Positions 1,457 to 17,847 of a stretch of 64,000 nt of DNA are shown here, piece after piece. Where the stretch lies: assembly GCA_021738625.1 (NCBI GenBank), contig JAIPBS010000011.1, positions 1-64,000 on the forward strand. The letters are read 5' to 3'. The DNA comes from Bacteroidales bacterium (GTDB lineage Bacteria; Bacteroidota; Bacteroidia; Bacteroidales; JAIOZK01). The first letter of the stretch is position 1; each line of letters opens with the position of its first letter. Both the position numbers and the translations under genes were made by a program. Under the pieces are notes generated by a model. It was not told the origin of the DNA, did no database searches, and saw only the letters and a program-made list of their open reading frames with translations.

Positions 1457-3346
1457 CTATTCATCCTTTGCCAATCTGAATCCTATGCAGTTTCTACTAA
1501 CATTAGGGCTTAGAAAATAACGATTTGCTACTCTGCAATGCTTTGCTCGGTTATACCAGCATCCTCCTCTGAAAACACAATTTGAGCCACTCTGAGGACC
1601 TTGAGGGTTAATTTCATTATTTTGGTCATAATAATTGCTTCCATAAATATCACTGCACCATTCCCAAACATTTCCGCTCATATCATATAAGCCCAATTGA
1701 TTAGGTTCTTTTCGACCAACTGGATGAGTTTTTCTTCCAGAATTCAAACCATACCAACCAACATCATAAATATCATTGCCTCCACTATATCTATGCTCTG
1801 AAATTAAATCTCCACCCCTTGCTGCATATTCCCATTCAGCCTCAGTGGGCAAACGTCCACCTGCCCATACACAGAATGCAGTCGCATCATTCCATGTGAC
1901 GTGAATAACGGGATGATCATATTCACTCTCTGATCGAACTACACCATTTACATCACACTTCCAATTCACCGAACTCTTCTTAATCCAGTCACTTCCGGTC
2001 CAAATCCAGCTATATCCAACTCTTTCAGCATCTGTCGTATATGAAGTAGCTTTCACAAATTCAGCAAATTCGCCAACAGATACTTCAAATTTGTCAAGGT
2101 GAAAACTATTAATACAAACTCTATGAAAAGGTTTCTCATCTTCATCACATTCAAATTGTTCATCAGTACATCCCATGATGTAACATCCACCCTTAACAAA
2201 AACCATGTTTTTAAGCACCTTTTTGGAATTTTCCCTTTTCACAAAAAGCTCTTTGTATTCATTTTTCTCTAAAAAAACACTCATAGCCCAATTAATATCA
2301 CCCTGTATTTTAAAACTGTGACTTCCCGATGTTAAATTATCTATAACCACTGAAGTGCCAGAATCAAGTATTCTATAAAAAACGTCATCCACATATAGTT
2401 CTCCGGTAATCTCTGTAATTATCTCAACCTTTCCGTAATTTTCTTGCAAAGTCTCATCCGCATGAAAAGTCTTTGTTGAATTGTTAGGATTTAAGATAAA
2501 CACAAAATCCCCTTTATCAAGATTGGGATTTCTTATTTTACCATACTGGGGATGTTGAGACTCATAAGTATAATTAATGACGGTAGTTTGCAAAAATTCA
2601 CCTAATTCACTTCCTGTTATATAACCATCCTCATTTTCATCAGCATCCCCACTTAAGCCAACAACAAATTGCTCACAAAAAACACTTTGATCAGGAACCT
2701 CTTCATTAGCATCTCCAGCCGTTATGAATTGTCTAACTGGCTCTCGTGTTTTGTAATTGATAATACTAGGAGCTGATTTGGACACATAAAATATGGAACC
2801 TGAGAAGCAACAATCAAACATAAACAAAACATGTTTTGAATCCATTCTTTTTGCATAAACCTCAATCAAGTCCATATTTATCGCTTTGTCTTTAAAACCT
2901 TTTGGGTCATTATGAGGATTAGGTGCATCTTTAGGAACAATATATCCCATTTCACCTCCCCATGATTGTTTCATCGTATATCCATGACCGGAGTAATAAA
3001 TAAATAATCTATTATGGAAATCTCTCGCGTAATCTGAAATAAAATCATCAAATGCCTTCTTGAACTCCGCAGAAGTTGGATCGCTTATGATTCTAATATT
3101 AAAACCGTGTTTTTCCAAAATCTTTCGGACCTTAATAATATCATTTTTAACACCGGGCAAATTAGACCATCCCTCGTCATAGGTACTCACACTAATTAAT
3201 AGTGCATGACTCTGAGAATATAATTCATCTATATCTTCAACATCTTCGAATTTAAGGACTTCTACACCTTTGCTTTGAGAAAAAGACTTATAATTGGTCA
3301 GCCATATCAGAAAGCAAATCAAAATGCATAACCTAATAGGAACCAT
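1457..3346 (-). CDS. Secreted caspase-like peptidase fused to a formylglycine-generating-enzyme (sulfatase-modifying) domain
   Basis: From ATG 3346 the protein has 629 residues. The frame is open further to a TTG at 3367, but a -7-like TATTTTTG sits at 3377-3370, so the ATG fits better. Order: signal peptide (about 1-24); peptidase C14 caspase-like domain (about 45-220) with YYSGHG (His121) and DCCFSG (Cys180) as the likely dyad; a calcium-loop match DENEDGYITGSE (236-247); a small beta region; then an FGE-sulfatase fold (about 380-627) with GGRLPTEAEWEYAARGG, SGNVWEWCSD, FRGGCWY and IGFRLAK. Orthocaspase/FGE fusions are known in bacteria. Ca-dependent proteolysis outside the cytoplasm is inference, and this FGE-like fold may not make formylglycine. 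Domain calls are firm. Confidence 0.85.
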   Translation of the reverse strand: MVPIRLCILICFLIWLTNYKSFSQSKGVEVLKFEDVEDIDELYSQSHALLISVSTYDEGWSNLPGVKNDIIKVRKILEKHGFNIRIISDPTSAEFKKAFDDFISDYARDFHNRLFIYYSGHGYTMKQSWGGEMGYIVPKDAPNPHNDPKGFKDKAINMDLIEVYAKRMDSKHVLFMFDCCFSGSIFYVSKSAPSIINYKTREPVRQFITAGDANEEVPDQSVFCEQFVVGLSGDADENEDGYITGSELGEFLQTTVINYTYESQHPQYGKIRNPNLDKGDFVFILNPNNSTKTFHADETLQENYGKVEIITEITGELYVDDVFYRILDSGTSVVIDNLTSGSHSFKIQGDINWAMSVFLEKNEYKELFVKRENSKKVLKNMVFVKGGCYIMGCTDEQFECDEDEKPFHRVCINSFHLDKFEVSVGEFAEFVKATSYTTDAERVGYSWIWTGSDWIKKSSVNWKCDVNGVVRSESEYDHPVIHVTWNDATAFCVWAGGRLPTEAEWEYAARGGDLISEHRYSGGNDIYDVGWYGLNSGRKTHPVGRKEPNQLGLYDMSGNVWEWCSDIYGSNYYDQNNEINPQGPQSGSNCVFRGGCWYNRAKHCRVANRYFLSPNVSRNCIGFRLAKDE

Positions 3347-3377
3347 TTGCAAAAAAATTTTACACAATTCAAAAATA

Positions 3378-3970
3378 AGATAATTTTTGTCACTGTCATC
3401 CGACTAAATCACAAATATAGTCCTTCGTGAAGGTAATTCATAGATTATCAATTGCTGTTTTTTTGTTTTCAAAATGACCTCCCTAAAAGTAAAATTGAAT
3501 TTTGCACTGCGGGCGGCGGCTTTGAAATCTTATACGTTCTCCTTTTGCTTCTGGGCAATTCAAAAACATCCAGCACACCGATCAGATGGCTGCGTACCAA
3601 CAATGCCACAACAGAAAATTCTTTCTTTTCACTAGCCATTTTTTGTATTACCGTTAACAGTAACTGTGCTATCATGGTGCACCAAACCTATGTGTATATT
3701 GCGTTTTCATTTTCCCTCTTTTTTTTATTGAATTAATTTAGTCGGACAATAGTGCTTTAAATTTTTCATGAGTTATTGATTTACTCTTTTATTTCAGCGA
3801 AAGACTTGCATAAATCTGGCTTTTTTACTTCACCAAATATAATTCAGTTAAATAAAATATGCAAAAAATTATTAAAGCAGTGGAACCTTTTCAAAAAATC
3901 AGGGATATGTAATATAAAGCTGTGTTCTTTTCACAATTGTAATGTTGATTTTATCAGAATGAAGTCATCT
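3378..3970. other. AT-rich stretch without a recognisable gene
   Basis: About 600 bp with short frames on both strands (for example 3469-3675 minus and 3452-3736 plus) that overlap each other, have no domain pattern and look fortuitous. It separates the divergent caspase-FGE gene and the HU gene. Possible -7 elements for the minus-strand gene lie at 3377-3370 and 3419-3412 (TATATTTG). I see no RNA gene or clear repeat here. Confidence 0.5.
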
Positions 3971-4085
3971 TTATAAAAACATGTGCGCATCATTTATAAA
4001 AAAACACAGGTGTTTCAGAATAAAAACACAGGTGTTTTGAGATAAAAACAGCTGTGTATTTGAATGAAAACACAGCACGTTCTGT
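3971..4085 (+). promoter_or_regulatory. Five degenerate ~22-26 bp direct repeats upstream of the HU gene
   Basis: Five units begin at 3971, 3994, 4020, 4042 and 4064. Each carries an AT-A-AAAACA start followed by a CACAGGTGTTT-type core. In units 2 and 3 the core is an inverted repeat (AAACAC, two bases, GTGTTT). Spacing near two helical turns would put all units on one face of the DNA. They end about 90 bp before the HU start. This looks like an operator array for a DNA-binding protein, possibly HU itself. The repeats are seen; the role is inference. Confidence 0.5.
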
Positions 4086-4175
4086 AGGCCTTAATGGCAA
4101 AGGGCTGCAGGAGCGAGTTTTCGCTTTTTATGCAGCACTCAAAATAACATATTTATCAATCAAAATTTTTTAGCT

Positions 4176-4562
4176 ATGGCAGTAAAATTTTATGCAATCG
4201 AAAAGGGTGAACCCGGCGTTGTGGGTGGTGGTACCAAAAAGTGGTATGCCTCCCTGCGTGCTGCAGGTACCCTTGATCTGAGTGATCTGGCCACTGATGT
4301 GGCCGACAACACAACCGTAAGTGAAACCGATGCCTACGCGGTATTAAAAGCCCTCGAAAAGCAAATACCCAAACAGCTATCCCGTGGGTTCTCCGTTAAG
4401 CTTGGTGATTTCGGAAGGTTTCGTCTTTCGATATCTTCCAACGGACACGATACTGAAGAAGAGGTTTCTGCATCAAGCATCAAAAAAAGCAGAATTCTTT
4501 TTTCACCCGGTTCAAAAATTAAAAATGCGTTAAAGTTGATTGACTTTGTAAAGGCGAATTAG
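4176..4562 (+). CDS. HU-related DNA-binding protein (Bacteroidetes HU_rel type)
   Basis: 128 residues starting MAVKFYAIEKGEPGVVGGGTK, the typical opening of the Bacteroidetes family of histone-like HU relatives (TIGR01201-type). The HU core follows: an N-terminal helical part with VSETDAYAVLKALEKQIP, then GFSVKLGDFGRFRLSISS, the strand region leading to the DNA-binding arm, and IKKSRILFSPGSKIKNAL. Such proteins bind DNA as nucleoid-like or architectural factors and are often found beside mobile or accessory regions. It stands alone, with the repeat array 5' and a hairpin terminator 3'. Confidence 0.85.
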   Translation: MAVKFYAIEKGEPGVVGGGTKKWYASLRAAGTLDLSDLATDVADNTTVSETDAYAVLKALEKQIPKQLSRGFSVKLGDFGRFRLSISSNGHDTEEEVSASSIKKSRILFSPGSKIKNALKLIDFVKAN

Positions 4563-4572
4563 TCACTGAAGA

Positions 4573-4602
4573 AACAGGCCGCTTAGTAATGGGCGGCCTG
4601 TT
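4573..4602 (+). terminator. Hairpin terminator after the HU gene
   Basis: AACAGGCCGC (4573-4582) pairs perfectly with GCGGCCTGTT (4593-4602) around a 10-base loop, 11 bases after the HU stop and followed by TCTATTAGTT. The T-run is weak. It also lies just beyond the end of the res gene arriving from the other side, so it may serve both. Confidence 0.7.
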
Positions 4603-4644
4603 CTATTAGTTAAAAATATGTAACGCATAAAAACATTAATATGG

Positions 4645-7281
4645 TTAAAATAGTTCCTCCACCTTCGTTACATGACGATATTCTACATCTTTGAATTTGT
4701 CAAAATGTGCCGTCCCGCACTTTATTTTCAACTTCTCTTCAATCCTAAGTTTTGAAAGGTCTTTTGTAGATTTGGTTTCAGCTACAAAATAGATTTTCTT
4801 TTCATTCTTGAAAACCAATGCCCAGTCGGGATTGTATTTTCCGATCGGTGTGTCGATGTGGAACCAGAATGGAAGTTTGAAGTAAAACTCAATGTCTTCA
4901 CGTGTTTCACATTCTTTGGCAAAACCGGTCTCAACATCCGAATCAAGCGGAATATACTTATCGTAAATGGTCTTGTCGTTTTTGCTTACTTCAAAAGTCA
5001 GATTGTCAAGGTAAGTTTCAATTTCGTTTTCTTCAAAGAGCAACATTTCATAGTCTTTGTTGCCTATTTTTTCATATTTGATGCCGTCTATCATTAATTT
5101 ATAGAGCACGTTTTTGATAGCGCCAACTGCTTTGTCAAGAAATAACTGTGGGTTGACCAGAATATCGTTCATTCGTTCCGATTGTTTCAGTATTTCCAGA
5201 ATTGTGCTACGCGTCAGTTCGGTTTTGCTCTGGATGTAACCAAGTACGTCAGGAATTTCATGGTCTTTTTCCGGTTCAAGTACCTTCGATCCTTTTACTT
5301 CATAATTTACCCCGGGCTCTTGGATGAGAATGCCAACTTTAACCGATTTGATACGTGGCCTTTTGATTTTTTCAATTTCTTTTACGGCTTTGGAAGCTGC
5401 TTTAATCAATTCGTCCGTGTCATACGCCACCCGGTAATAAGTTCGTGATTTGATCCGCTCCCATATTTCAAGGAATTTCGGATCTGCCTGAAAGCCTTTG
5501 CGGTATTCGACTTTTACTCGTTTGCGTTTGTCTTTAATACGTCCTTTAAATGCCACTCCGCAATCTTCTTTAATTTCCTCTTGCAGTTTTTTGGCAAAGT
5601 CTTCATAACTCTCATTGGCAATGACCGTAAGCCTGTTAATGTTCCGGTCGTGGATTCTGTTGCCGGTTTCGTCCACTGCCAAACGCAAACCTCTGCCTAT
5701 TTCCTGTCTCTTTTTCATGTCGGATTTGGTTTCGTTTAGTGTGCAAATTTGAAACACATTCGGACTGTCCCATCCTTCACGCAAAGCGGAGTGACTGAAG
5801 ATGAATCTCAAAGGTTCATTGTTGTCCAACAACCTTTCTTTGTCTTTCATGATGAGCCGGTAAGTATCATCATCCGCTTTGGTTTCACCGGAAGTATCTT
5901 TAAATCTTCCCTTTTTGTCTTGTGCGAAATAACCGTTATGAACCTGATCTACCGGAAAAGTAATCAAACCTTTAAAGGCCGGTTTTTCTGCAATCTCTTT
6001 AAAAGCCTCTTCAAACCATTGGGCAAAACGGCCCGGTAACGGATTCCCTGATTCATCATATTGCCGATAGTTGGCTACCTTGTCAATAAAAAACAGGGAA
6101 AGCGTTTTAATGCCCTTGTCTTTCAGTTTATGTTCCTTCTTGAAATGTTCTTCAATGGTTTTCTGAATCTGGAACTTCATAATTTCATCCGTCAAACCGC
6201 CTTGGGTGTCGCCTACATACAGCAAGGTTCCGTTGGTAAATGAAATGCACTGATTGGACACGTCAATTTCATCGATAATAAAGCCATCCTGATAGATTTC
6301 CCGCTTATTGGATAATGCGTATAGATCATCTCCAACTTTGGCGGTTAAAGTCTTTTTTGTTACACCGCTATCTTGATTTACATCGATCCTTAGTCTGGCG
6401 GAAGTGCGGGTTTTTGTGGCTTTAAGTGCCTCCAAACTAACGAAAGCATCGTTATAGTTGTTCTCAGCAAATACCGAATCCACTTCGATTTCCTTAACCA
6501 GGCCAAGGTCATAAGCTTTTACCGGGTCCAGACTGTAAACAAGGTTGTACAGGTTCAGGTGAGTTGCCGAGTATCGAAAGGTACAGGAAGGATGCAGGTT
6601 TTCAATGGCTTTTTTCCGAATGTCGGTTTCCATATTCTGCGGTTCATCCACAATTACGAAAGGACGTGTGTATTGAATAAACTCAATCGGACGCTTCCCG
6701 GTCAGCTTGTCGTTGGGTTTGTTAATGATATTTTCGTCCTTGGCAAAGGCATCAATGTTCATCACCCGTACCTGAACCGTATTACTCGATGCAAATCCTC
6801 TGAGCTGGGAAACTTTACCGGAATCGTACACGCCAAAATCAACAGGTACTTTGTCATAAAGCGTTTGAAAATGTTCGTAGGTGATTTCCAGATTTTTCAG
6901 AACACCTTCCCTTATAGCTACACTCGGTACAACAATCACAAACTTTTTAAAACCGTACTGTTTGTTGAGTTCGTAGATGGTTCGCAGGTACACATATGTT
7001 TTGCCGGTTCCGGTCTCCATTTCAACAGAGAAGTTCATACCGTCCAATTCGGAAATCGGTTCAATGTCGTTTCGTTGCTGAACCTCCTGCACGTTTTTCA
7101 GGATTTGTTCATCCGTCAACACGATATTGTTTCCAACGCCATTTTCAGAAAGGCTCAAACTGCCGTGCGTCAAAGTAAAGTCCAACTCGCTGCTACTCAA
7201 AGGCTGCCCTTCAAAGATGTCAACAATGGCGTTGATCGCCTGTTTTTGATAATCCTGGTTGGGGTTGAATTGGAGTTTCAT
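4645..7281 (-). CDS. res: Type III restriction enzyme, Res subunit
   Basis: 878 residues. Superfamily 2 helicase motor: Walker A METGTGKT (88-95), DEAH-like VIVDEP (near 212), FSHSALREGWDSPN and a QEIGRGLR arginine-finger motif. Near the C-terminus (about 822-845) PDWA followed by the AETK box gives the PD-(D/E)XK nuclease expected of Res. It should cut DNA after ATP-driven translocation when two unmethylated Mod sites are met. The ATG overlaps the stop of the DUF262 gene by one base (TAATG), so translation is coupled. All motor and nuclease motifs look intact. It is the last gene of the five-gene operon. Confidence 0.93.
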   Translation of the reverse strand: MKLQFNPNQDYQKQAINAIVDIFEGQPLSSSELDFTLTHGSLSLSENGVGNNIVLTDEQILKNVQEVQQRNDIEPISELDGMNFSVEMETGTGKTYVYLRTIYELNKQYGFKKFVIVVPSVAIREGVLKNLEITYEHFQTLYDKVPVDFGVYDSGKVSQLRGFASSNTVQVRVMNIDAFAKDENIINKPNDKLTGKRPIEFIQYTRPFVIVDEPQNMETDIRKKAIENLHPSCTFRYSATHLNLYNLVYSLDPVKAYDLGLVKEIEVDSVFAENNYNDAFVSLEALKATKTRTSARLRIDVNQDSGVTKKTLTAKVGDDLYALSNKREIYQDGFIIDEIDVSNQCISFTNGTLLYVGDTQGGLTDEIMKFQIQKTIEEHFKKEHKLKDKGIKTLSLFFIDKVANYRQYDESGNPLPGRFAQWFEEAFKEIAEKPAFKGLITFPVDQVHNGYFAQDKKGRFKDTSGETKADDDTYRLIMKDKERLLDNNEPLRFIFSHSALREGWDSPNVFQICTLNETKSDMKKRQEIGRGLRLAVDETGNRIHDRNINRLTVIANESYEDFAKKLQEEIKEDCGVAFKGRIKDKRKRVKVEYRKGFQADPKFLEIWERIKSRTYYRVAYDTDELIKAASKAVKEIEKIKRPRIKSVKVGILIQEPGVNYEVKGSKVLEPEKDHEIPDVLGYIQSKTELTRSTILEILKQSERMNDILVNPQLFLDKAVGAIKNVLYKLMIDGIKYEKIGNKDYEMLLFEENEIETYLDNLTFEVSKNDKTIYDKYIPLDSDVETGFAKECETREDIEFYFKLPFWFHIDTPIGKYNPDWALVFKNEKKIYFVAETKSTKDLSKLRIEEKLKIKCGTAHFDKFKDVEYRHVTKVEELF

Positions 7282-8366
7282 TAACTTAATATTTCACTGG
7301 ATTTTAAATAGTGTGAAAATGCTTTTTCTAAAAAGTCATGTCTACGTTTAATAGAATAAGCCTCAACAGAGGCCTGCGAAATGTATTTTTGAAAATCTTC
7401 AAGAATAATTTGGTTTTTTGGAGTTTCATATTGATTTAATAAGTTCATGTTCTCCTTAATTTTAAGTAGTAGTGACTCAAAAAAACTCGCAAACTTTTTA
7501 ACATCATTCTTCCTGTTGATTTTAACTAAATGCTCTGAAAAAAGATAAGCGGACACGGCAACTGCTCTACTGGAAATTATACCAGCCTTCCCGTCAAATG
7601 CTTCATCCATTATTTCAAGCACATTTTTGATTTGTGTAAGCTTACCATCATTTTTATCTAGATCGTGATAATCTTCAAAGAAGTCTTCTATATTCTCAAG
7701 TCTTGCTCTAATAAACTTTCCATTTAAAGACTGTTCAAAGGAGTTAATGCAGATTTGTGCCAAAGTAAATGGAATGGAAAACCTCTTACGTGATAAACTT
7801 GTCTTTCTGAAAAAGGGGCCATCATTGCCGATTTCTTTGTAGATAAAATCCCGGATTGTTCCTGTTCTTGTCTTCAGTAACTCACCAGAGTTTAAACGAA
7901 CTCCTAATTGGAGTCTTCGAAAAATCACTCGAACAAAATCATCATCGATAGAATTATAAATAGTAAAGCTTAGTAGGTATTTATCAACTTTATCAGCAAT
8001 TGTCGGATGTTCTTCTTTTAGGTCGGCATAGGTATACTTTTTCCCACCCATGCTAAGTTTGGGAGTTGGTTCATTAGTTGACTCAGGTTTGTAAAAATTC
8101 TGCAAACATGTCATTCGTTGTTTACCGTCAATACACTCAAAATCAAAGCTTTTATTTTTTGGAGATGTTTTAACCAAATACAACTTAGGAATGTCTATAT
8201 CCTGAAAAATTGAATCTAAAAGCTCCTCTTGTTGCTTGAGAGACCATATATGTTCTCGTTGATAATCCGCATCCAAATCGATTCGGAACATGTAATCATC
8301 AATTAATTCTTTGACAGAGATATTATTTAGCTCTCTATTTGAAGTAGATATATTTGATTGTGCCAT
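7281..8366 (-). CDS. DUF262 domain protein
   Basis: 361 residues. The N-terminal half has the DUF262 signature: YQREHIW (35-41), EELLDSIFQDIDIPKLYL and CIDGKQRMTCL, where DGKQR (80-84) is the usual DGQQR nucleotide-binding motif. DUF262 forms the N-terminal half of GmrSD-type modification-dependent restriction enzymes. Here no DUF1524/HNH half follows; the rest is helical and unfamiliar. It is tightly packed (four bases after the SIR2 gene, one-base overlap with res), so it should be made with the restriction operon. It may act as an accessory NTPase or a partner of the SIR2 protein. Domain call firm, role unknown. Confidence 0.85.
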   Translation of the reverse strand: MAQSNISTSNRELNNISVKELIDDYMFRIDLDADYQREHIWSLKQQEELLDSIFQDIDIPKLYLVKTSPKNKSFDFECIDGKQRMTCLQNFYKPESTNEPTPKLSMGGKKYTYADLKEEHPTIADKVDKYLLSFTIYNSIDDDFVRVIFRRLQLGVRLNSGELLKTRTGTIRDFIYKEIGNDGPFFRKTSLSRKRFSIPFTLAQICINSFEQSLNGKFIRARLENIEDFFEDYHDLDKNDGKLTQIKNVLEIMDEAFDGKAGIISSRAVAVSAYLFSEHLVKINRKNDVKKFASFFESLLLKIKENMNLLNQYETPKNQIILEDFQKYISQASVEAYSIKRRHDFLEKAFSHYLKSSEILS

Positions 8367-8370
8367 ATTA

Positions 8371-9363
8371 TTACATTAATTTTTTAAGATGCTTCGTATT
8401 GTTAATTTTTTCACCAAGTTCTGATTGAGCCTTTGACCTAATCCAAGTTTTAAAGGGATTGCCTGTATTATAGTCAGCTATTTCTTTGGGTGGAAGAAGC
8501 CCATTTTCAATTTCCAATGGATTTATAAAACCAGGAAGAAAACCATATTCTTCGACCAGCCTATGATTTTCCCCTATTCTCTGAAAATCAATTATTTCAA
8601 TATTTATTTTACTGTTCCTTTGCTGGTGTGCTTTAAACAAAAGATCAATCAATCCTAAATCATTTGAATTGAGAGAACACCCGATTACTCTCAAAATATC
8701 AGCATTTATTAAAAGTTCAAGGGCATTCGACCAGATAAAACTATAAGGTGGCATCAAGTAATTCTTGTTAGCACCGAGTGGGATAATAGGTATATATTTC
8801 TTTTGTCCAAATAGATTAACATTATTCCAATTAAATGAGCCGTGCAACTTTAGTAGGGGGAGGTTTTTTTTGTTTGAATCAGAACTGCTAAAGCTGTAAT
8901 AAGGCTTTTTCTTTATTACGGATCTATATGCCGTGTCAATCACATCGTCATAGTTAAGGCTAATAATTCCTGCTAATTCCTCTTTCCTTTTTGTATATTG
9001 ATGTAGTTCAAAAAGTGCTTTGTGTAAATAAAACTTACTTTTTCTATAAGGCGTTAAAACGGACTGAATGTCTTTTTCAACAAAATCCTTTAATTTGGAT
9101 ATATGTTCATCCGGAATCATGTTACTAACGAATAAACTTATTAATAACTCAATATTTGTGGAACCAGAAGGGTGAGCAAAAACATCTTTCTTGTCATCAA
9201 ACCAAGGGTCGCCTTTCAGCTTTCGCATTATCCTTTTTGATACTCCCTTAATCAATAAACCATATTTATCCAAATAGTTTTCGTCAATCTTATTAGTAGA
9301 ATTCACAATCTCTGCGTGAGTTGCTCCTGCTCCGAATAAATAAACGATTCTCTTTTTTGTCAT
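8371..9363 (-). CDS. SIR2-like NAD-binding domain protein
   Basis: 330 residues. Rossmann-type start LFGAGATHAE (GAGAT at 11-15), SLNYDDVIDTAY (Asn137 and Asp139, the NYD motif), LLKLHGSFNW (His174, catalytic position) and VIGCSLNSND (227-235). These are the marks of SIR2-like domains used as NADase effectors in anti-phage systems such as Thoeris ThsA and DSR. No STALD, TIR or membrane part is seen, so it is a compact cytosolic protein. Six bases separate it from the upstream methylase and four from the DUF262 gene. NAD depletion on failure of restriction is inference. Confidence 0.8.
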   Translation of the reverse strand: MTKKRIVYLFGAGATHAEIVNSTNKIDENYLDKYGLLIKGVSKRIMRKLKGDPWFDDKKDVFAHPSGSTNIELLISLFVSNMIPDEHISKLKDFVEKDIQSVLTPYRKSKFYLHKALFELHQYTKRKEELAGIISLNYDDVIDTAYRSVIKKKPYYSFSSSDSNKKNLPLLKLHGSFNWNNVNLFGQKKYIPIIPLGANKNYLMPPYSFIWSNALELLINADILRVIGCSLNSNDLGLIDLLFKAHQQRNSKINIEIIDFQRIGENHRLVEEYGFLPGFINPLEIENGLLPPKEIADYNTGNPFKTWIRSKAQSELGEKINNTKHLKKLM

Positions 9364-9369
9364 ATTAGC

Positions 9370-10596
9370 TTATTTTTCCCAGATGACAATACTTTCACGG
9401 GATGGTGTTCTTCTATATGTTTTCATTTGTTGAGAACTATTTCCCCTGTAACGAGCAAGCCAAATTCCTTTCGGTTTTAACCCAGCTTGTTTGCCAATTT
9501 CAGAGAGTATTTCATCAACAGGGATATTGATACCTGCAAACCGAACATTACTGACTACCAAAGCCACTTTCCCATTTTTATTCAGGTGACTACTCATTTC
9601 CAGGAGAGCCAAATACATATCCTCAAAATAACCTTTCAACATATCGATTACTTGAGGATTATTTACCCCGTTTTTTTCCATTTGGTTAATAAGTTGTTTC
9701 AGCGTTGGGTCTATTTTATACCCGTTCACTTCATATTTCTGTCTGGCTTCCACGTGTGAACGAAGGGTATCGTAACGTATTTTTTTTAACTCATCATTGT
9801 CCTTAACAAAGTCAAATACCAATTCAAGCGCATAAATGCGAGTATAATCATGTCGGTTAGGATAGGGTGGTGAAGTTATAATCGCATCATACATATTTGT
9901 TGTTGGAATCTCTCTGGCATCGCCATGGAAAGCTCTAACTTCTGTTTTTGCTTGCCCATTGATCTTCTTGTATGAATCAACATCAATAATCATTTTTTGT
10001 ATCCTATCCAGAAATAAGTTTTTTATCTCCTCAACTTGAATATTTCGATCCACAATTCTTAAGAAACCACCCGACTTAGAAGTATTGCTCACTGATTCCA
10101 GGATGCTCAAAAAACCAAGGTTGAAAAAATCACGTGTTTCTACATCTTCTATTTGCATGATTTGTTCTTTGATTTGAAGTAGCTGTTGTTCTGTTTCCTT
10201 GTTGAATGCCTTTTTTAATAGCAATATATCAGGAAGTGCACTTGAAGGAGTGGTCCATTTGTTAATTTCTCCAAACTTTTTATTGGTTTCTTTCAGATTT
10301 TCAATATCAAATTCTTTGGTTTTAACATTACTAAGAAATACAGAGAATGGCAAAATATCGAAACCGTGGGCGTTAACTCCGGCATGTTTACATGCTAACA
10401 GAGTTGTGCCTCCGCCACAAAAAGAATCCATTACCCAAGCTCCTTTTTTGAGATTAAATTCAGAAATAAATGTATCTACTAGTTCCTTTGAATAACTGTG
10501 TTTAAAGGAATGCCAGTTATAAATAGGCTTGTTAAGGTCTCTTCGTGGAGAGATCAAATGAGATAGAGTATCTATTTTATCAGTTATCAAAACCAT
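9370..10596 (-). CDS. DNA methyltransferase, TSPPY type (likely N4-cytosine or N6-adenine)
   Basis: 408 residues. The S-adenosylmethionine motif DSFCGGGTTLLACKHAG starts near residue 57 and the catalytic motif TSPPYPNRHDY lies near 245, so motif I comes before motif IV. (T)SPPY is commonest in m4C enzymes, with some m6A enzymes sharing it. A target-recognition part probably lies between the two motifs (about 90-240) or at the C-terminus. It is the second methylase of the operon, starts two bases after the mod stop, and has no nuclease of its own nearby. It may mark DNA for the SIR2/DUF262 pair rather than for Res; that is inference. Confidence 0.85.
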   Translation of the reverse strand: MVLITDKIDTLSHLISPRRDLNKPIYNWHSFKHSYSKELVDTFISEFNLKKGAWVMDSFCGGGTTLLACKHAGVNAHGFDILPFSVFLSNVKTKEFDIENLKETNKKFGEINKWTTPSSALPDILLLKKAFNKETEQQLLQIKEQIMQIEDVETRDFFNLGFLSILESVSNTSKSGGFLRIVDRNIQVEEIKNLFLDRIQKMIIDVDSYKKINGQAKTEVRAFHGDAREIPTTNMYDAIITSPPYPNRHDYTRIYALELVFDFVKDNDELKKIRYDTLRSHVEARQKYEVNGYKIDPTLKQLINQMEKNGVNNPQVIDMLKGYFEDMYLALLEMSSHLNKNGKVALVVSNVRFAGINIPVDEILSEIGKQAGLKPKGIWLARYRGNSSQQMKTYRRTPSRESIVIWEK

Positions 10597-10598
10597 TT

Positions 10599-12557
10599 TT
10601 ATATCGTTTTAAATTCAACCCCAGCATCCCGCATTTGCAGCACGGTATTGGTTTTTAACTGGTCGTTCCCTGCAAACAGTTTGTCCAGCGCAATACATTT
10701 AGTTGGTTTTAGGGAGATAATTTCTTTTACAATAGTCTCGTTCATTTTGGTGAGTGCAACGACCATTTCATTGCCGTTTACCACATAATAATTCCCTTTA
10801 TGATGAACGGTGCTGTTTAGGTCAAATCCGGATTTCAGAAGCAATTCGTACAGCATGTTTTCTTCTTCCGAACCTTCTTTCGTGGGGTCTGTAAAAGCAT
10901 CCAGTTGCTTTTCCAACTGCACTCCGTTTTCAAACTTGTTGCCTCTCCATATTTTGAAATTGGATGATTGAAGTTTGAACACCTTAAAGCCAAGGTCAAG
11001 TTTTAGGACTTCTTTTTCATCACTGAAATCCAACTTTCCGGCTTTTTCTTTCTTTTCAGCCTCTTGCTCACTCTGGATTTTATTGATGACCCTGCGGATT
11101 CGTTCTTTGGCTAAGTCGGTAATGGTTTTGTAACCGGATTTATATGCCTCCCTTTTTTCGTCTATTTTTTCAGGCAGTTGGACACATATAAATTTGCGTT
11201 TTTCTTCGTCTTCCTTGTTTTGGTTAAAGGTTGCATGACCGGTAGTCGCTGAACCCGAGAAAAAATCCAAAATAATATCGTCTTCATTTGTGGATAACTG
11301 GATGCATTGTTTTATCAGACTTACTGGCTTTGGAAAATCAAATGAATTTTCCATCTTAATTTGCCTAAGTTCTAGAGTCCCAGTTTCTGTCAAGAAGCTA
11401 TTATTTTCCCATATTGATTTAGGCTTGTAAGTGGTTTTGCGGTATTTCTCATAAATTCCAATGGATCCATCATTTTTTTTCTTGGCAACAAGATTACTTA
11501 TTGTTGTATCTTCATTAATATTTTCCAATGATTTACCCTTGCCCCATCGCCAACAGCTTTCTTTTCCTGATGAATTTAATGGAATTATTTCATGCAAAAA
11601 TAAATCAGTCTTTTTCAAAGAAACAGGGTGCAAATTGTTATCATCACCAAAGTCTAAATTCACATAAATTGGGTAAAACAAATTAGGTCTATTATGCTTA
11701 CCGAATTTTGGATTCCTATTTCTAAGTTCACGGAGATTAAAACTACCTATCTGGTCATTCAAGTTTAGATCAGATGTTTCAGCATCTTTCTCTAATTCAT
11801 TTAGTTCTGTTTCAGAATTTTTTGTGTAAACCAATATATATTCATGAGTTTTTGCAATCTGTTTATATGTTTGCCCTCTGCTATTGGCTCTTACAATTAT
11901 TTGCGCAAAAAAATTCTCCTCTCCAAAAACCTCATTCAACAATAGGCGTAGATTGTGCACCTCATTGTCGTCAATGGAAATGAAGATCACTCCGTCATCT
12001 TTCAGCAGGTTCCTGGCAAGGAACAGGCGGGGGTACATCATGTTGAGCCAGTTGGAATGGTAATGTCCGCTGTCCCGGCTGTTTTTCCGGTACATTCCTT
12101 CACGGGTTAGATACCCTTCTTCGTCTTTTTCGCCTACTCGCTTTAAATAATCTTCTTTGCTTTCCGAAAAGCGGTCTGGATAAATAAAGTGGTCGTTACC
12201 AGTATTGTAAGGAGGGTCAATGTAGATCATCTTCACCTTGCCGTAGTAGCTTTTTTGGAGCACTTTCAGCACTTCAAGGTTTTCGCCTTCAATGAAAATG
12301 TGTCCGGTATCTTCAAAATTTACGGATTCCTCTTTTGCAGGAGTGAGGGTAGCGGTTGTCGGAGACTGCAATATCTTAAAGGCATCACTTTTTCCCGCCC
12401 AGTTCAAAACGTAGCGTTCGTTGCTGAAGGTAATATCTTCTCCCAGTGTAGCTTTCAGCTTTTCCCAATCTACCTTTCCTTCGCTGATGGCTTCCGGGAA
12501 AAGCTCCTTTAGCTTTTCAAGTTGTATTTGTTGTATGTCGAGTGAGTTTCCGTCCAT
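10599..12557 (-). CDS. mod: Type III restriction-modification methyltransferase, Mod subunit
   Basis: 652 residues. The beta-class order is seen: catalytic motif IDPPYNTGND at 113-122 first, and SAM motif ILDFFSGSATTGHA near 430 later, with the variable target-recognition region between (about 240-400). DPPY indicates N6-adenine methylation of one strand, as in EcoP1-type Mod. The N-terminal helical segment and C-terminal part for Res contact are present at normal length. First gene of the operon; a weak promoter-like TGATTTTG lies just upstream. Recognition specificity cannot be read from sequence. Confidence 0.93.
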   Translation of the reverse strand: MDGNSLDIQQIQLEKLKELFPEAISEGKVDWEKLKATLGEDITFSNERYVLNWAGKSDAFKILQSPTTATLTPAKEESVNFEDTGHIFIEGENLEVLKVLQKSYYGKVKMIYIDPPYNTGNDHFIYPDRFSESKEDYLKRVGEKDEEGYLTREGMYRKNSRDSGHYHSNWLNMMYPRLFLARNLLKDDGVIFISIDDNEVHNLRLLLNEVFGEENFFAQIIVRANSRGQTYKQIAKTHEYILVYTKNSETELNELEKDAETSDLNLNDQIGSFNLRELRNRNPKFGKHNRPNLFYPIYVNLDFGDDNNLHPVSLKKTDLFLHEIIPLNSSGKESCWRWGKGKSLENINEDTTISNLVAKKKNDGSIGIYEKYRKTTYKPKSIWENNSFLTETGTLELRQIKMENSFDFPKPVSLIKQCIQLSTNEDDIILDFFSGSATTGHATFNQNKEDEEKRKFICVQLPEKIDEKREAYKSGYKTITDLAKERIRRVINKIQSEQEAEKKEKAGKLDFSDEKEVLKLDLGFKVFKLQSSNFKIWRGNKFENGVQLEKQLDAFTDPTKEGSEEENMLYELLLKSGFDLNSTVHHKGNYYVVNGNEMVVALTKMNETIVKEIISLKPTKCIALDKLFAGNDQLKTNTVLQMRDAGVEFKTI

Positions 12558-12790
12558 TTTATGTCAAACTGTTGTTTGTTTTTAAAACCAAAATCATTTT
12601 AACTTTTTAAAGTATCCGAAACTGAAAAGGTTAATGTGCTGCAACCTAACCATCTGATATTCAGCGCCGGTTAAATATACATACAGGACGCCGTTCCAAA
12701 TATACCCCTTCCCCAAATAAACTCCAAAGTAAAACATAATATTTTTTACATGAATCTTGAAAATGCTAAAGATTATATTTTGGAAAGATA
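12558..12790. other. Leader region of the mod operon, no gene seen
   Basis: AT-rich spacer with a poorly supported 80-codon frame on the minus strand (12594-12836), which runs on into the REP and has no family pattern. The mod promoter should lie here. I see TTTC and TGATTTTG with 21 bases between them on the minus strand, a loose match to the Bacteroidetes promoter. Confidence 0.4.
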
Positions 12791-12814
12791 ACCGGGAAAC
12801 TTGTTGTAAATTAG
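12791..12814 (+). pseudogene. Last eight codons of a lost T9SS type A protein
   Basis: The codons for TGKLVVN and a TAG stop are identical to the end of the secreted protein ending at 15900, and nearly so to the one ending at 17847. As at 17847, a REP palindrome follows within a few bases. Nothing upstream continues the frame, so this is a deletion scar of a third relative or a copied fragment of the 17.8-kb locus. Confidence 0.65.
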
Positions 12815-12820
12815 ATATCG

Positions 12821-13163
12821 TTGCAGAGACGCCCAATTTGGGCGTCTCTACGTTTCTAAATCCATTTCATGATCCATATAAGGCCATCACCAAACCATCA
12901 ACCAGTATCCCACCATCTGTTCTTTCTCCGACAGGGCGACGCCCCGCGAAAATCCGTGTTTCCACGGGCCGAGTTCCTGCGGGCGGAGTACCTCAGCCTT
13001 TTCACGCCAGAAATAACCCGAATCGGCTTCGATCACATGTACTTCCAGATCTTCAGGCAGATTGTAAATACGTACCGGTAAGTCGGGGTAGTTCGGATCT
13101 TCATGGTCCCTGTAGCCCAAACCAAAATCAAGGGACTCCATGCGGGGGACGTGCAGCTGCCCA
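12821..13163. repeat. Long direct repeat, right copy, with REP copy 2 (12821-12851)
   Basis: Begins with the REP palindrome (stems 12826-12834 and 12840-12848) and continues as a close match to 983-1325 in the same orientation. After about 13163 the similarity stops abruptly within the shared gene, showing that this copy is cut at its coding 5' side. Confidence 0.8.
12887..13141 (-). pseudogene. Hypothetical protein, repeat-encoded (copy 2, truncated)
   Basis: An 84-residue frame that matches the C-terminal part of the ORF at 1050-1454: DFGLGYRDHEDPNYP, NLPEDLEVHVIEADSGYFW and an LSEKEQMVGYWLMVW end. The N-terminal part is missing; upstream DNA is unrelated. Preserved frame and conservative changes argue that an ancestral protein existed. 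Unknown family. Confidence 0.45.
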
Positions 13164-14001: not shown

Positions 14002-15900
14002 ATGCATATGTTTAGTAAAAGATTTTTTTTAGCAACAATAATATTCTTATTCGTTGCTAGGCTTTTTTCACAGACAACAGATATCATGTGGCAAATGTGT
14101 CTGGGCACAAAAGAAAGAGATTTTGCTGAATCCGTAGTTGCTTTTAATCAAAGTTATTTTTTTGGAGTATCAATTGGTACTGATGATTCAGCTTTAACAA
14201 ATTACCATGGCAAAGGCGATGTCTGGATAGTAAATACGGATACTTCAGGTAACATTTTATGGGAAAGATGTTACGGTGGTAGTGAAGGGGAAGGAAGTAA
14301 TAAGATTATTCCTATTGACAAAAACTATTTATATTTATTGAATCATACTGCATCGTCGGACGGTGATATTCAATCCGGTAATAATGGATGGGTAGATGCT
14401 TGGGTAGTTAAAATTGATAGGCAGGGAAACATTATCTGGGAACAAACCTATGGTGGACCAAATAATGAACAAGTTCGTGACGCATTCTTAACTCCCGATG
14501 ACGGGCTTTTGTTCATGACCAGGACAACTTCAGCAGGCGGGGATATTAGCAATTATTATGGAGCCAGAGATATCTGGTTGTGTAGAATTGATTCTCTTGG
14601 AGGGATTATTTGGGAAAAAACCATAGGAAATCAGGGATATGATAATGCCATGAAAATGAAATTAACTTCTGATTCTACTTTTGTGGTTCTGGCCAATTTT
14701 AACGGGGATGGCGGAATGGTTGAATGTGATTTCATGGGCCCCTGGGACGGAACAGATATCTGGCTGGTGGAAATGGACCTGGATGGTAATATACTGAGGC
14801 AATCCTGCTATGGTGGGAGCCATGATGATCTCGGCTATGATATAGTCAAAACAGAAGATGGTTTTACATTTACTGCTACAACACGCTCATATGACGGAGA
14901 TGTGAGTGGCTGGCATGGTAACTATGATATTTGGGTGGTAAAACTGGATGATGATCTGAATATCATCTGGCAAAAATGCCTAGGAGGTTCTGATATGGAA
15001 TACCCGAATTATATCACACAAACAACGGATTCCGGCTACATAACCATTGGAACCACAATATCGCATGATGGAGATGTTTCCAACAACCATGGAATTCCTG
15101 GTTCCGGTAAAAGAGATATATGGATGGTAAAGCTCAATAAACACGGTGATCTAATTTGGGAACATTGTTTTGGCAGCTGGAATAGCGAGGATTTCGATGG
15201 ATTGCATGGTATTCTGAAGAAAAATGATTATAATTATATTATTGCGGGGCAGGCATTTATAGAGTCAGGAGATGTTGAATGCGACCTTTATGGCCCTAAT
15301 GATATGGATGGATGGATCTTCGAAATAAAGGACTGTGCTTTCTTATCCCCCCAAACTCCAAACCAACCCACAGGCCCCGATACACTATGCCACACAACCG
15401 ACTCCACAAGCACCTATTCAACCGGCCCTGCTGCAAATGCCTGGGGCTATGAATGGGATATAGCGCCGGATGAGGCCGGTACAGTTACAGTTGATTCCCT
15501 TTTTGCCTATGTCAACTGGAACCAGCAATATGAAGGAGAAGTGAAAATTTCAGCAAGAAGCTTTAACGATTGCGGTGAATCGGGTTGGTCGCAGGTGAAA
15601 ACAAGCTGGGTTTACAACTGTGTTGGCCTGGAAGAATTATTTGCCGGGAATGTAAAACTATTGGTGTATCCCAATCCTGCAAAAGAAAAAGTGATCTTTG
15701 AAATTGCCCATAAAGACACCGGAGTAACCACAACAAAGAATTTGAAATTGATTGTCCGGGATATTTACGGAAGAATCGTGCACAGCACAAACCTGCAGCA
15801 ACGTGATACATGGGATACCCGATCCATCAAAGCCGGCATTTATTTTTATACATTGAGATCAACCGGTTTATCGAAAACCGGGAAACTTGTTGTAAATTAG
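14002..15900 (+). CDS. Secreted repeat (propeller-like) protein with T9SS type A sorting domain, copy 1
   Basis: 632 residues: signal peptide (1-23); about seven repeats (30-440) with the pattern DGD...G..D.W.VK.D..G.I.WE...GG, which suggests a seven-bladed beta-propeller; an Ig/PKD-like domain (about 455-545, AWGYEWDIAPDEAG); and a type A CTD with VYPNPAKEKVIFEIA, DIYGRIVHSTN and GIYFYTL...KTGKLVVN. The CTD should direct it through the T9SS to the cell surface. The next gene is a paralogue. Their DNA is nearly identical over the Ig-like domain and much of the CTD but clearly diverged before it. Ligand or substrate unknown. Confidence 0.85.
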   Translation: MHMFSKRFFLATIIFLFVARLFSQTTDIMWQMCLGTKERDFAESVVAFNQSYFFGVSIGTDDSALTNYHGKGDVWIVNTDTSGNILWERCYGGSEGEGSNKIIPIDKNYLYLLNHTASSDGDIQSGNNGWVDAWVVKIDRQGNIIWEQTYGGPNNEQVRDAFLTPDDGLLFMTRTTSAGGDISNYYGARDIWLCRIDSLGGIIWEKTIGNQGYDNAMKMKLTSDSTFVVLANFNGDGGMVECDFMGPWDGTDIWLVEMDLDGNILRQSCYGGSHDDLGYDIVKTEDGFTFTATTRSYDGDVSGWHGNYDIWVVKLDDDLNIIWQKCLGGSDMEYPNYITQTTDSGYITIGTTISHDGDVSNNHGIPGSGKRDIWMVKLNKHGDLIWEHCFGSWNSEDFDGLHGILKKNDYNYIIAGQAFIESGDVECDLYGPNDMDGWIFEIKDCAFLSPQTPNQPTGPDTLCHTTDSTSTYSTGPAANAWGYEWDIAPDEAGTVTVDSLFAYVNWNQQYEGEVKISARSFNDCGESGWSQVKTSWVYNCVGLEELFAGNVKLLVYPNPAKEKVIFEIAHKDTGVTTTKNLKLIVRDIYGRIVHSTNLQQRDTWDTRSIKAGIYFYTLRSTGLSKTGKLVVN

Positions 15901-15913
15901 TATCAATAAACAG

Positions 15914-15942
15914 GGAAGTGATGCCAATACCGTATCACTTCC
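15914..15942 (+). terminator. Hairpin between the two tandem T9SS genes
   Basis: GGAAGTGAT pairs perfectly with ATCACTTCC around an 11-base loop, 14 bases after the stop of the first gene. Only GTT follows, so termination may be partial and the second gene, starting at 15961, may still be read through. Confidence 0.5.
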
Positions 15943-15960
15943 GTTAACCAGGCTGTCGCA

Positions 15961-17847
15961 ATGAAACAAGGATTTGTTTTTTTTCTGATTGCTTTTGTCT
16001 TTTCGGGTTTGAATGGAAGCGGTCAAATAGATACCATTACCAAACAGCAGTGTTTGGGAACAACCGGAAATGATATACCTTATGGTATCGCCAAAACAGG
16101 AAACAAATACTTTTATTCTATCCTGGTAAGCAGCGAGGATAGCGCTTTAACAAATTATCATGGAATGGCTGATTCATGGATTGTTTGCGCCGATAGCTCA
16201 GGCCATATTATATGGGAAAAATGTTATGGAGGAACTGATGGAGACAGACCGGAAAAAATTATTCCCATTGATTCATGCAGTCTTTATTTGTTTAACATAT
16301 CAGATTCTTTTGATGGTGATGTACAAAACGGCAAAGATGCTAGCTTTTGGATTGTCAAAATTGATACTTCGGGAAAAATTATCTGGGAAAACAGTTATGG
16401 AAACCGATCATGTTATCCACGAGATGCCATATTAACACCCGATAATGGCCTTTTGATAATGGGACGCATCATGTATGCCGGAGGGGATGTGAGCGTTTAT
16501 TATGGAAGAAATGACATATGGCTGTGCAAGATCGATTCGCTAGGCAACATTCAGTGGGAGAAAACATATGGCAACCAGGGGCAGGATAATGCAATCAAGT
16601 TGATACTCACCTCCGATTCCACCTATATGTTTATAGGGGGGCATTACGAAAGCGGAGGCATGATCCAGTGCGAAGATATGGGTAGCGACGGGGCTGATGT
16701 TTGGATCGTTGAGCTGGACATGAACGGTGAGATGATACGAGAGTATTGCTATGGAGGAAGCCATAATGATCTTGGGGAAGCTATAATCGAAACGGAAAAT
16801 GGTTATTTTTTTGTTGGCTCCACGAACTCCGACGACGGGGATGTAACCGGTCTGCATGGATTGCCGGGTAACTATTCGGATATTTGGGCCTGTAGGATTA
16901 CCCGTAAAGGACAAATCATATGGCAAAGGTGTCTTGGAGGTAGCTCTAGCGAATATGGGGTTTATACCACCCAAACCCAGGACAGCGGGTTCATCGTGAT
17001 GGGCAATACCACATCGCACAATGGTGATGTCAGCGGGAATCATTCCGTACAGGGACGTATGGACATTTGGGTGGTTAAGTTGAGCAAGGATGGCCAGCTT
17101 GAATGGGAGCATTGTTTCGGTGGCTATGGGTATGACAGGTTCTATGGAATTCATACGGTTTTGAAAAAAAGCGATTACAATTATGTGTTGGCGGCACAGT
17201 CCTATTCGGCCTCTTTTGATGTTACCTGCGATTTATACGGGATACAGGACAGCGATGCCTGGATCATTGAAATCAAAGACTGCCTGTTTCATGCGCCTCA
17301 TATTCCTGAAATACCATCGGGTCCGGACAGCCTATGCCACACAACCGACTCCACAAGCACCTATTCAATCGGCCCTGCTGCAAATGCCTGGGGCTATGAA
17401 TGGGATATAGCGCCGGATGAGGCCGGTACAGTTACAGAAGATTCCCTTTTTGCCTATGTCAACTGGAACCGGCAATACGAAGGAGAAGTGGAAATTTCAG
17501 CAAGAAGCTTTAACGATTGCGGTGAATCGGACTGGTCGGAAGCAAAAAAGACCTGGGTTTATAATTGTGTAGGTGTTGAAGAATTATCTGCCGGAGGATT
17601 TAAACTTCTGGTGTACCCCAATCCTGCTAAAGAAAAAGTGATCTTTGAAATTGCCCATAAGGACACAGGAATAACCACAACAAATAATTTGAAATTGATT
17701 GTCCGGGATATTTATGGAAGAATCGTGCATAAGACAAACATTCGAGACCGGCAGATATGGGACACCCGATCTGTTAAAGCCGGCATTTATTTTTATACCC
17801 TAATCTCGAACGGATTTTCTAAATCCGGGAAACTTGTTGTAAATTAG
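15961..17847 (+). CDS. Secreted repeat (propeller-like) protein with T9SS type A sorting domain, copy 2
   Basis: 628 residues with the same plan as its upstream neighbour: signal peptide (1-22), about seven DGD / D.W.VK.D / I.W...GG repeats, an Ig/PKD-like domain and a type A CTD ending SGKLVVN. Blades 1-7 differ from copy 1 at many positions, while the last ~170 codons are almost the same, which points to gene conversion or a recent exchange of the export module. A REP palindrome follows at 17854. Surface protein of unknown ligand. Confidence 0.85.
   Translation: MKQGFVFFLIAFVFSGLNGSGQIDTITKQQCLGTTGNDIPYGIAKTGNKYFYSILVSSEDSALTNYHGMADSWIVCADSSGHIIWEKCYGGTDGDRPEKIIPIDSCSLYLFNISDSFDGDVQNGKDASFWIVKIDTSGKIIWENSYGNRSCYPRDAILTPDNGLLIMGRIMYAGGDVSVYYGRNDIWLCKIDSLGNIQWEKTYGNQGQDNAIKLILTSDSTYMFIGGHYESGGMIQCEDMGSDGADVWIVELDMNGEMIREYCYGGSHNDLGEAIIETENGYFFVGSTNSDDGDVTGLHGLPGNYSDIWACRITRKGQIIWQRCLGGSSSEYGVYTTQTQDSGFIVMGNTTSHNGDVSGNHSVQGRMDIWVVKLSKDGQLEWEHCFGGYGYDRFYGIHTVLKKSDYNYVLAAQSYSASFDVTCDLYGIQDSDAWIIEIKDCLFHAPHIPEIPSGPDSLCHTTDSTSTYSIGPAANAWGYEWDIAPDEAGTVTEDSLFAYVNWNRQYEGEVEISARSFNDCGESDWSEAKKTWVYNCVGVEELSAGGFKLLVYPNPAKEKVIFEIAHKDTGITTTNNLKLIVRDIYGRIVHKTNIRDRQIWDTRSVKAGIYFYTLISNGFSKSGKLVVN

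Follow-up and report, generated by a model that had tools for sequence, protein, structure and literature searches.

What does an ordered array of short repeats do directly ahead of a gene for an HU-like protein? The array in question occupies positions 3971–4085 of the window (the whole 64,000-nucleotide stretch of DNA analysed here) and is not assigned to either strand. Sequence inspection, shuffle tests and a dyad scan resolve it into five units of about 22 bp, each consisting of an A-tract, a dyad-symmetric core and a T-tract. We think it rather probable that the array is a gene-linked, phase-locked landing platform for the neighbouring HU-HIG protein.

When the units are placed in a common register of 14 bp, unit 1 (AAACATGTGCGCAT, 3977–3990) is degenerate and weak and falls 1–3 bp outside the exact register. 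Units 2 (4002–4015) and 3 (4024–4037) are identical (AAACACAGGTGTTT) and have dyad centres at 4008.5 and 4030.5, respectively. Unit 4 (AAACAGCTGTGTAT, 4046–4059) is centred at 4051.5, and unit 5 (AAACACAGCACGTT, 4068–4081) has a weak dyad and is identified by its lag-22 match. The starts of units 2 to 5 (4002, 4024, 4046 and 4068) are spaced by exactly 22 bp, and unit 1 is offset by 25 bp in the common register, or by 23 bp if the TGCGCA core is taken as its centre. A preliminary description of this DNA, made from the sequence alone, had given a spacing of 22–26 bp, which is correct yet understates the regularity of units 2 to 5. Centres with at least six of eight complementary pairs, found at 0.5% of window positions, mark clear dyads in three array units, at 4008.5, 4030.5 and 4051.5, and also occur at 3974.5, 4041.5 and 4078.5.

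The array lies approximately 91–205 bp ahead of the start codon of the HU-HIG gene, in an 808-bp gap between a minus-strand open reading frame (1457–3367) and that plus-strand gene (4176–4562). Its lag-22 segment scores 21.0. When the 808 bp preceding the gene were shuffled 2000 times with dinucleotides preserved, this value was never reached (maximum 11.5); when all lags from 9 to 60 are considered, none of 500 shuffles reaches the array score (maximum 14.0). No other lag-22 segment within the 64 kb scores 14 or more. An 11-mer from the repeat, allowing up to two mismatches, has 25 matches in the window, six of them inside the array, versus 16.6 expected, and 3 of 100 shuffles reach 25. Since this word is barely more frequent in the window than chance would have it, the improbable part is the phased order and not the word.

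The downstream gene encodes a protein of 128 amino acids that is a clear member of the HU-HIG family (PF18291; TIGR01201 HU_rel), a clade of the HU/IHF superfamily. In a Pfam profile search, residues 1–124 of 128 match PF18291 with 102.6 bits (cut-off 26.2). The canonical HU profile, PF00216, gives 33.1 bits; this exceeds the cut-off for that profile (22.4) yet stays well under the PF18291 score, so that by its best profile the protein is not a canonical HU. Together with the shuffle tests, this match confirms the earlier claim of five phased repeats ahead of an HU-like gene. The gene is the sole match in its genome, whether the query is the protein itself (E≤0.001) or the Pfam profile (1e-10), and all 55 members of one sequence set (A4), including the window protein, match PF18291 at E≤0.001. 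We found no fusion part (wHTH, Ig or Gly-rich) in the window protein, whose 128 amino acids are filled by the profile with no second Pfam domain type. We read the family title as listing fusions of some members, and on this reading the lack of a fusion does not expel the protein from HU-HIG. The protein belongs to the PGVxGGG subfamily.

An AlphaFold2 model of the window protein, built from 55 sequences (pLDDT 94.5), has the HU/IHF fold. Its HU core consists of helices 35–45, 50–69 and 113–120 and strands 80–88 and 102–111, and extra N-terminal strands (2–10 and 22–27) lie beyond this core. Among solved structures, the closest chain is 4fmr from Bacteroides vulgatus (Z 9.8 and rmsd 3.2 over 114 residues), followed by HU chains with Z of about 8; structural matches outside HU/IHF (Z 4.5 and less) were set aside. 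The segment equivalent to the basic arm of HU contains few basic residues in the window protein, which counts against a landing platform, and this segment contains no proline in either the window protein or the consensus.

A leader hairpin on the plus strand between the array and the start codon (4102–4139) has modest support (z -2.36, with 5 of 200 shuffles equally good), and a terminator-like hairpin lies 3' of the gene on the same strand (4573–4602; one found versus 0.7 expected). There are no Rfam matches at E≤1 in 3301–4700. Promoter scans gave no excess, either of sigma-70-like sites (three versus 2.9 expected) or of TANNTTTG (61 matches versus 60.5 expected).

To place the array among relatives of the gene, we used a first set of 81 loci, each including flanks of at most 6 kb, made up of the window and 80 more (59 from an order search and 21 from a phylum search). 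The order search gave 98 places, 64 in the set with 6-kb flanks and 34 outside it; the phylum search gave 40 places with at least 60 bits, 22 of which are in the set (window included), and its weaker matches resembled ordinary HU. Repeat segments scoring at least 14 at lags 9–60 were counted as near (within 300 bp of the gene) or far (more than 1 kb away). In this set, near and far counts are 34 versus 5 at lag 22, 27 versus 2 at lag 44, 7 versus 0 at lag 43, and 12 versus 14 at lag 21, with 64 kb of near DNA and 710 kb (11 times more) of far DNA. A segment at lag 22 or 44 is present in 37 of the 81 loci. Five loci from the first scan only, outside the set (L044, L048, L050, L055 and L056), have no lag-22 array within 300 bp; L048 carries a 10/20-bp array, and L056 has a lag-22 repeat at 321–382.

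A similar picture comes from a second set, which was retrieved separately and consists of the 80 best among 116 loci, all carrying organism names. Near and far counts are 35 versus 0 at lag 22, 17 versus 0 at lag 44, 8 versus 0 at lag 43 and 12 versus 1 at lag 21, in 63 kb and 141 kb of DNA, respectively, and 40 of the 80 loci have a segment at lag 22 or 44. A few repeats at other lags also occur near these genes (e.g., lag 16, five near versus two far; lag 37, three versus none), which weighs against the platform. At least four loci are common to both sets (L171/L160, L233/L138, L241/L141 and L245/L140).

Removal of proteins with inner stops and of those at least 85% identical in ungapped comparison left 130 non-redundant loci. 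An array (lag 21–23 or 43–45, score at least 12, within 300 bp) is present in 94 of them (72%). The frequency falls to 1.8% in 1198 distant window pairs (300 bp per window) from the same loci, and two sets of control lags give 3.8% and 4.6%. At a threshold of 14 the count is 81 of 130, versus 1.4% of far pairs. Within the PGVxGGG subfamily, 54 of 66 loci have the array. By comparison, none of 30 canonical HU genes (30 of 78 matches, with a single locus taken per genome of the set) has a lag 22 or 44 segment, and there is one lag-20 segment among these loci. Within the Bacteroidota loci examined, the array is specifically linked to HU-HIG genes, and the preliminary proposal of ordered, phased sites tied to the HU-like gene extends, with the same arrangement in other letters, to its relatives. 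The 36 loci without an array, among them all four fetched loci of one genome (G024), speak against the platform.

The position of the array relative to the gene is variable. It is only downstream in 69 of the 130 loci, only upstream in 21 and on both sides in four. Among 63 arrays for which positions were compiled, the 48 downstream arrays extend from about 42 to 130 bp past the stop codon and the upstream arrays from -176 to -89 (medians). The open reading frame beyond a downstream array runs in the same direction in 25 cases and in the opposite direction in 19, and is absent in four. These positions bear on the possibility that the array has no role other than as operator of the HU-HIG gene, which would be subject to classical negative autoregulation at its own promoter. 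The window array, placed shortly before the start codon, and the upstream-only loci are as expected for such an operator. However, an array found only downstream, as in 69 of the 130 loci, cannot act as operator at the promoter of its gene. This majority disfavours a general role as a promoter operator, and we consider this explanation unlikely.

Genes flanking the module do not recur. Among 632 open reading frames from the 81 loci, no neighbour is found in more than six genomes, and the next cluster covers three; this clustering used blastp at E≤1e-8 and frames of at least 100 amino acids within 6 kb, a level at which distant families would escape. There is consequently no sign of defence genes or a partition motor as part of the module, and, on the lack of a recurring neighbour at the blastp level in 81 loci, we reject a link to the defence island at whose left side the array had earlier been placed. 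Rep, ParA and ParM are absent from the seven window proteins scanned (the HU-HIG protein included), and none recurs near the 81 loci at the blastp level. Thus, of the features of an iteron-type origin, phased direct repeats are present and an adjacent Rep initiator gene is not, and the motor NTPase partner of a partition locus is likewise missing from the scanned window proteins and, at the blastp level, from the neighbours.

Relatives of the protein occur in 15 of 72,556 plasmid records and 5 of 50,697 phage records, none above 60% identity, and two viral scans found none in IMG/VR. Six of these 20 records were fetched, and all but one lack a repeat at lag 21–23 or 43–45; the exception, from Treponema, carries a 21/43-bp repeat. 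This record (L280), a Treponema saccharophilum plasmid from another phylum, carries a distant HU-like gene with a 21-bp-lag repeat (score 21.5) approximately 250–330 bp upstream, and hints that the module may reach beyond Bacteroidota.

These data also bear on whether the array is a centromere- or origin-like site, analogous to an iteron or partition site, and the module serves to maintain an integrated mobile element. Phased repeats of 22 bp are typical of iterons and some partition sites, duplicated gene-plus-array cassettes exist in Bergeyella and Riemerella, and the gene and its island were not found in the draft genome of one sister species, an empty result for the island that is weak by itself. 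However, the scarcity of relatives on plasmids and viruses and the lack of recurring Rep, ParA or ParM genes make this explanation quite improbable, and the phage or plasmid iteron or partition site proposed in the preliminary description finds no support.

The surroundings of the array in the window have several features of their own. The minus-strand frame at 1457–3367 encodes caspase and FGE-sulfatase domains. A short element at 3392–3755, just ahead of the array, has near-inverted ends (ATCCGACTAAAT and ATTTAGTCGGAC), resembles (at 85%) what appears to be the end of an insertion sequence in the sister species, and looks like a cut-down insertion sequence or MITE. Synteny with this species was considered and rejected, as its match to 3374–3716 is that insertion-sequence end and not the HU-HIG locus; its draft genome has no match to window positions 4560–12900, although the empty result is weak by itself. 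A minus-strand run at 4645–12557 encodes a Res-type helicase/endonuclease, GmrSD_N (DUF262-like) and SIR2-like proteins and two DNA methylases; this is a restriction operon of type III-like make-up into which GmrSD_N and SIR2 genes have been inserted. A 342-bp direct repeat (984–1325 and 12821–13162; 89% identical, in one orientation) brackets the entire segment that comprises the gene with caspase and FGE domains, the HU-HIG gene with its array, and the genes of restriction type. This segment may come and go as a unit. Further along, two tandem paralogs at 14002–17847 encode large proteins, share approximately 70% DNA identity over 1744 columns, and the first carries a Por secretion tail. In the single genome searched from the same genus (G001), there is no HU-HIG match at 1e-10; two weak profile matches (40.7 and 36.6 bits), with one stop in each matched stretch, are probably canonical HU.

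Searching the window's own genome with the unit consensus (up to two mismatches) gave 84 strand-wise matches (45 + 39), versus 35 (13 + 22) for the reversed control. This roughly two-fold excess counts against the platform. The matches fall at 72 separate places, three in the array and 69 outside; at 12 of the 72, both strands were counted. No pair of matches outside the array lies within 100 bp, and there is thus no second array of the motif in this genome. Of the 23 outside places inspected, 21 are inside open reading frames and two are intergenic, so that the scatter over unrelated intergenic DNA that would have spoken against the preliminary description was not seen. We also rejected a scattered regulon in this genome on the basis of the same spacing and the mostly coding locations of the inspected places.

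Core letters are common within one locus and different between loci. Mean core similarity is 0.93 for proteins more than 90% identical (8 pairs), 0.55 and 0.61 between 70 and 90%, and 0.32–0.36 below this, so that motifs become more alike with closer proteins only where identity exceeds roughly 70% (Mantel r 0.17, p 0.001 for 61 arrays; r 0.13, p 0.017 for the PGVxGGG subfamily). Common descent alone could explain this correlation. Array length changes fast: two loci whose proteins are 88% identical have arrays of about six (L146) versus three (L147) units, and one array (L139) has approximately 17 near-identical units.

Genomes with several HU-HIG genes offer a closer comparison. Riemerella anatipestifer CCUG25054 has at least eight paralogs (L192, L199, L206, L210, L215, L216, L232 and L238), three of them near scaffold ends. 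L216 has CCTAGCTAGG-type cores, versus ACGCGT-type cores in L206, L210, L215 and L238, at approximately 87–88% protein identity; the segments picked automatically for L210 and L215 are not the visible repeats just 3' of the gene, and core similarity is understated there. Such differences argue against a strict one-protein-one-motif code, and strict co-variation of core letters and protein, which we had entertained, is weak only. Since the cores of close paralogs differ, the letters are not simply read from the protein sequence: either few residues decide the letters, or phase, dyad and A/T flanks are the main features that the protein reads. L216 and L238 are each followed by a protein with a signal-like start; the two resemble each other and match no Pfam family. 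The R. anatipestifer and R. columbina copies L238 and L237 share a main alignment block of 498 bp (90%) that begins 16 bp ahead of the start codon and extends 96 bp past the stop codon, where the array ends, with one further 86-bp aligned piece upstream. In Bergeyella zoohelcum, near-identical HU-HIG-plus-array cassettes of approximately 800 bp are present in at least four copies (L173, L174 and L176, two of them in tandem in L176), and L173 and L174 have 9-bp repeats upstream.

Some other, host-wide regulator might bind the sites, with HU-HIG genes merely its targets. Binding of the array by the HU-HIG protein is something we infer, which leaves room for such a regulator. However, a single regulator does not sit well with Riemerella paralogs of one genome that differ in core letters, with arrays that are mostly downstream, or with the single motif array in the window's genome, and we regard it as very improbable.

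Among the 90 loci with a best lag between 14 and 33 and a score of at least 12, 81 have that lag at 21–23 (52 at 22, 22 at 21 and 7 at 23); the remaining nine have best lags of 14, 16, 20, 25 or 33, with one at 16 and none at 17 or 27. The unit layout is an A-tract, a palindrome of 8–10 bp and a T-tract, as in AAACCTGCGCAGGTTT (L161), AAGCTCGCGAGCTCTT (L145) and TTTCAAACGTTTGAAA (L157). Of 77 arrays, reduced to 63 non-redundant ones for a dyad test, 42 have dyad symmetry at p<0.05, 20 of these at p<0.01; the 21 arrays with no significant dyad count against the platform. A weak common grammar emerges from 56 usable arrays relative to column-shuffled ones, with A at -8.5 (z 7.0) and -7.5 (z 4.4), C at -4.5 (z 4.9) and T at -2.5 (z 3.8). 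In addition, G is avoided at -2.5 and T is infrequent at -3.5, -1.5 and -0.5.

Palindromic repeats might instead act as RNA, with neighbouring units pairing to form tandem terminators or 3'-UTR hairpins, and some downstream arrays (e.g., L142 and L159) do contain terminator-like inverted pairs. However, hairpins need no spacing of 22 (or 21 or 23) bp, spacings that are off by half a turn are nearly absent, and upstream arrays obey the same rule, which makes a role as RNA highly unlikely. Although the DNA is AT-rich and some arrays, such as L139, are near-identical tandem copies, an origin by chance or slippage is hardly credible given the shuffle results, the 72% of loci versus 1.8% of far pairs and about 4% at control lags, and the absence of such arrays from all 30 canonical HU loci.

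A landing platform would work as follows. Gene and array would be two halves of one module, whose protein, presumably a homodimer made of the HU core and the added N-terminal beta pair, would bind its own adjacent array with one dimer per dyad-symmetric unit. Because the units are 22 bp (two helical turns) apart, all dimers would lie on one face of the helix and touch. Such face-aligned dimers could load cooperatively and form a short, bent nucleoprotein fibre at their own locus. The core letters would drift and be re-homogenised within each array, and the spacing, dyad and flanking A/T tracts would be retained. A likely local outcome is that the amount of HU-HIG protein is sensed and limited, and that the locus is insulated or silenced. 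A local fibre fits both array positions and the absence of partners.

A broader proposal, to which we would give slightly less than an even chance, is that this is a phylum-wide, two-part module in which a sequence- and phase-reading HU relative is paired with a private, fast-turnover array beside its gene. Under the same tentative proposal, the array would evolve with its protein much like a centromere or satellite with its binder, and every paralog would assemble a nucleoprotein fibre of its own and thereby mark the locus that encodes it.

HU is the textbook case of DNA binding that is largely indifferent to sequence. If the platform reading is true, a widespread branch of HU has private, phase-locked arrays, which would point to sequence-guided nucleoid architecture in Bacteroidota. 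The arrays supply natural candidate targets for proteins that carry no annotation beyond 'HU family DNA-binding protein', which makes binding, bending and function accessible to experiment, and the dozens of gene-array pairs found in nature offer material for examining how the HU fold gains specificity. The HU-HIG clade was reportedly defined among the HU/IHF clades by Burroughs and colleagues in Cell Cycle in 2017. Our search of titles and abstract openings, in which subscription literature is poorly covered, found no description of arrays beside HU-HIG genes, and the association seems unreported, subject to the possibility that the 2017 article mentions the repeats. The data suggest that HU-HIG and its array are an unrecognised pair of protein and landing site.

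Several known systems resemble this pair in part. HU-HIG shares its fold with canonical HU and IHF, and IHF bends specific sites. Canonical HU has basic, proline-tipped arms, whereas HU-HIG adds an N-terminal beta pair and lacks the arm proline (in the window protein and the consensus); moreover, canonical HU genes have no 22/44-bp array (30 loci). Iterons with Rep initiators, such as those of F, R6K and RK2, are likewise direct repeats of approximately 22 bp on one helix face beside the gene of the presumed binder. In contrast, the presumed binder here is of HU type and not Rep, is rare on plasmids, and has an array that lies on either side of the gene with letters that vary between most loci. 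REP/REPIN elements with RAYT transposases also tie palindromic repeats to a single gene family, but they are dispersed in many extragenic copies, whereas the HU-HIG array is the one motif cluster in the window's genome (21 of the 23 inspected matches elsewhere being in open reading frames), has a fixed 22-bp phasing and comes with no transposase. ParR and omega partition sites likewise consist of short repeats in an array linked to the gene for their binding protein, which is small and dimeric; in contrast, no motor NTPase partner recurs beside HU-HIG at the blastp level. A DNA-binding protein with a linked array of sites is thus a known kind of system, and what seems new here is the HU-type protein and the private letters of its array.
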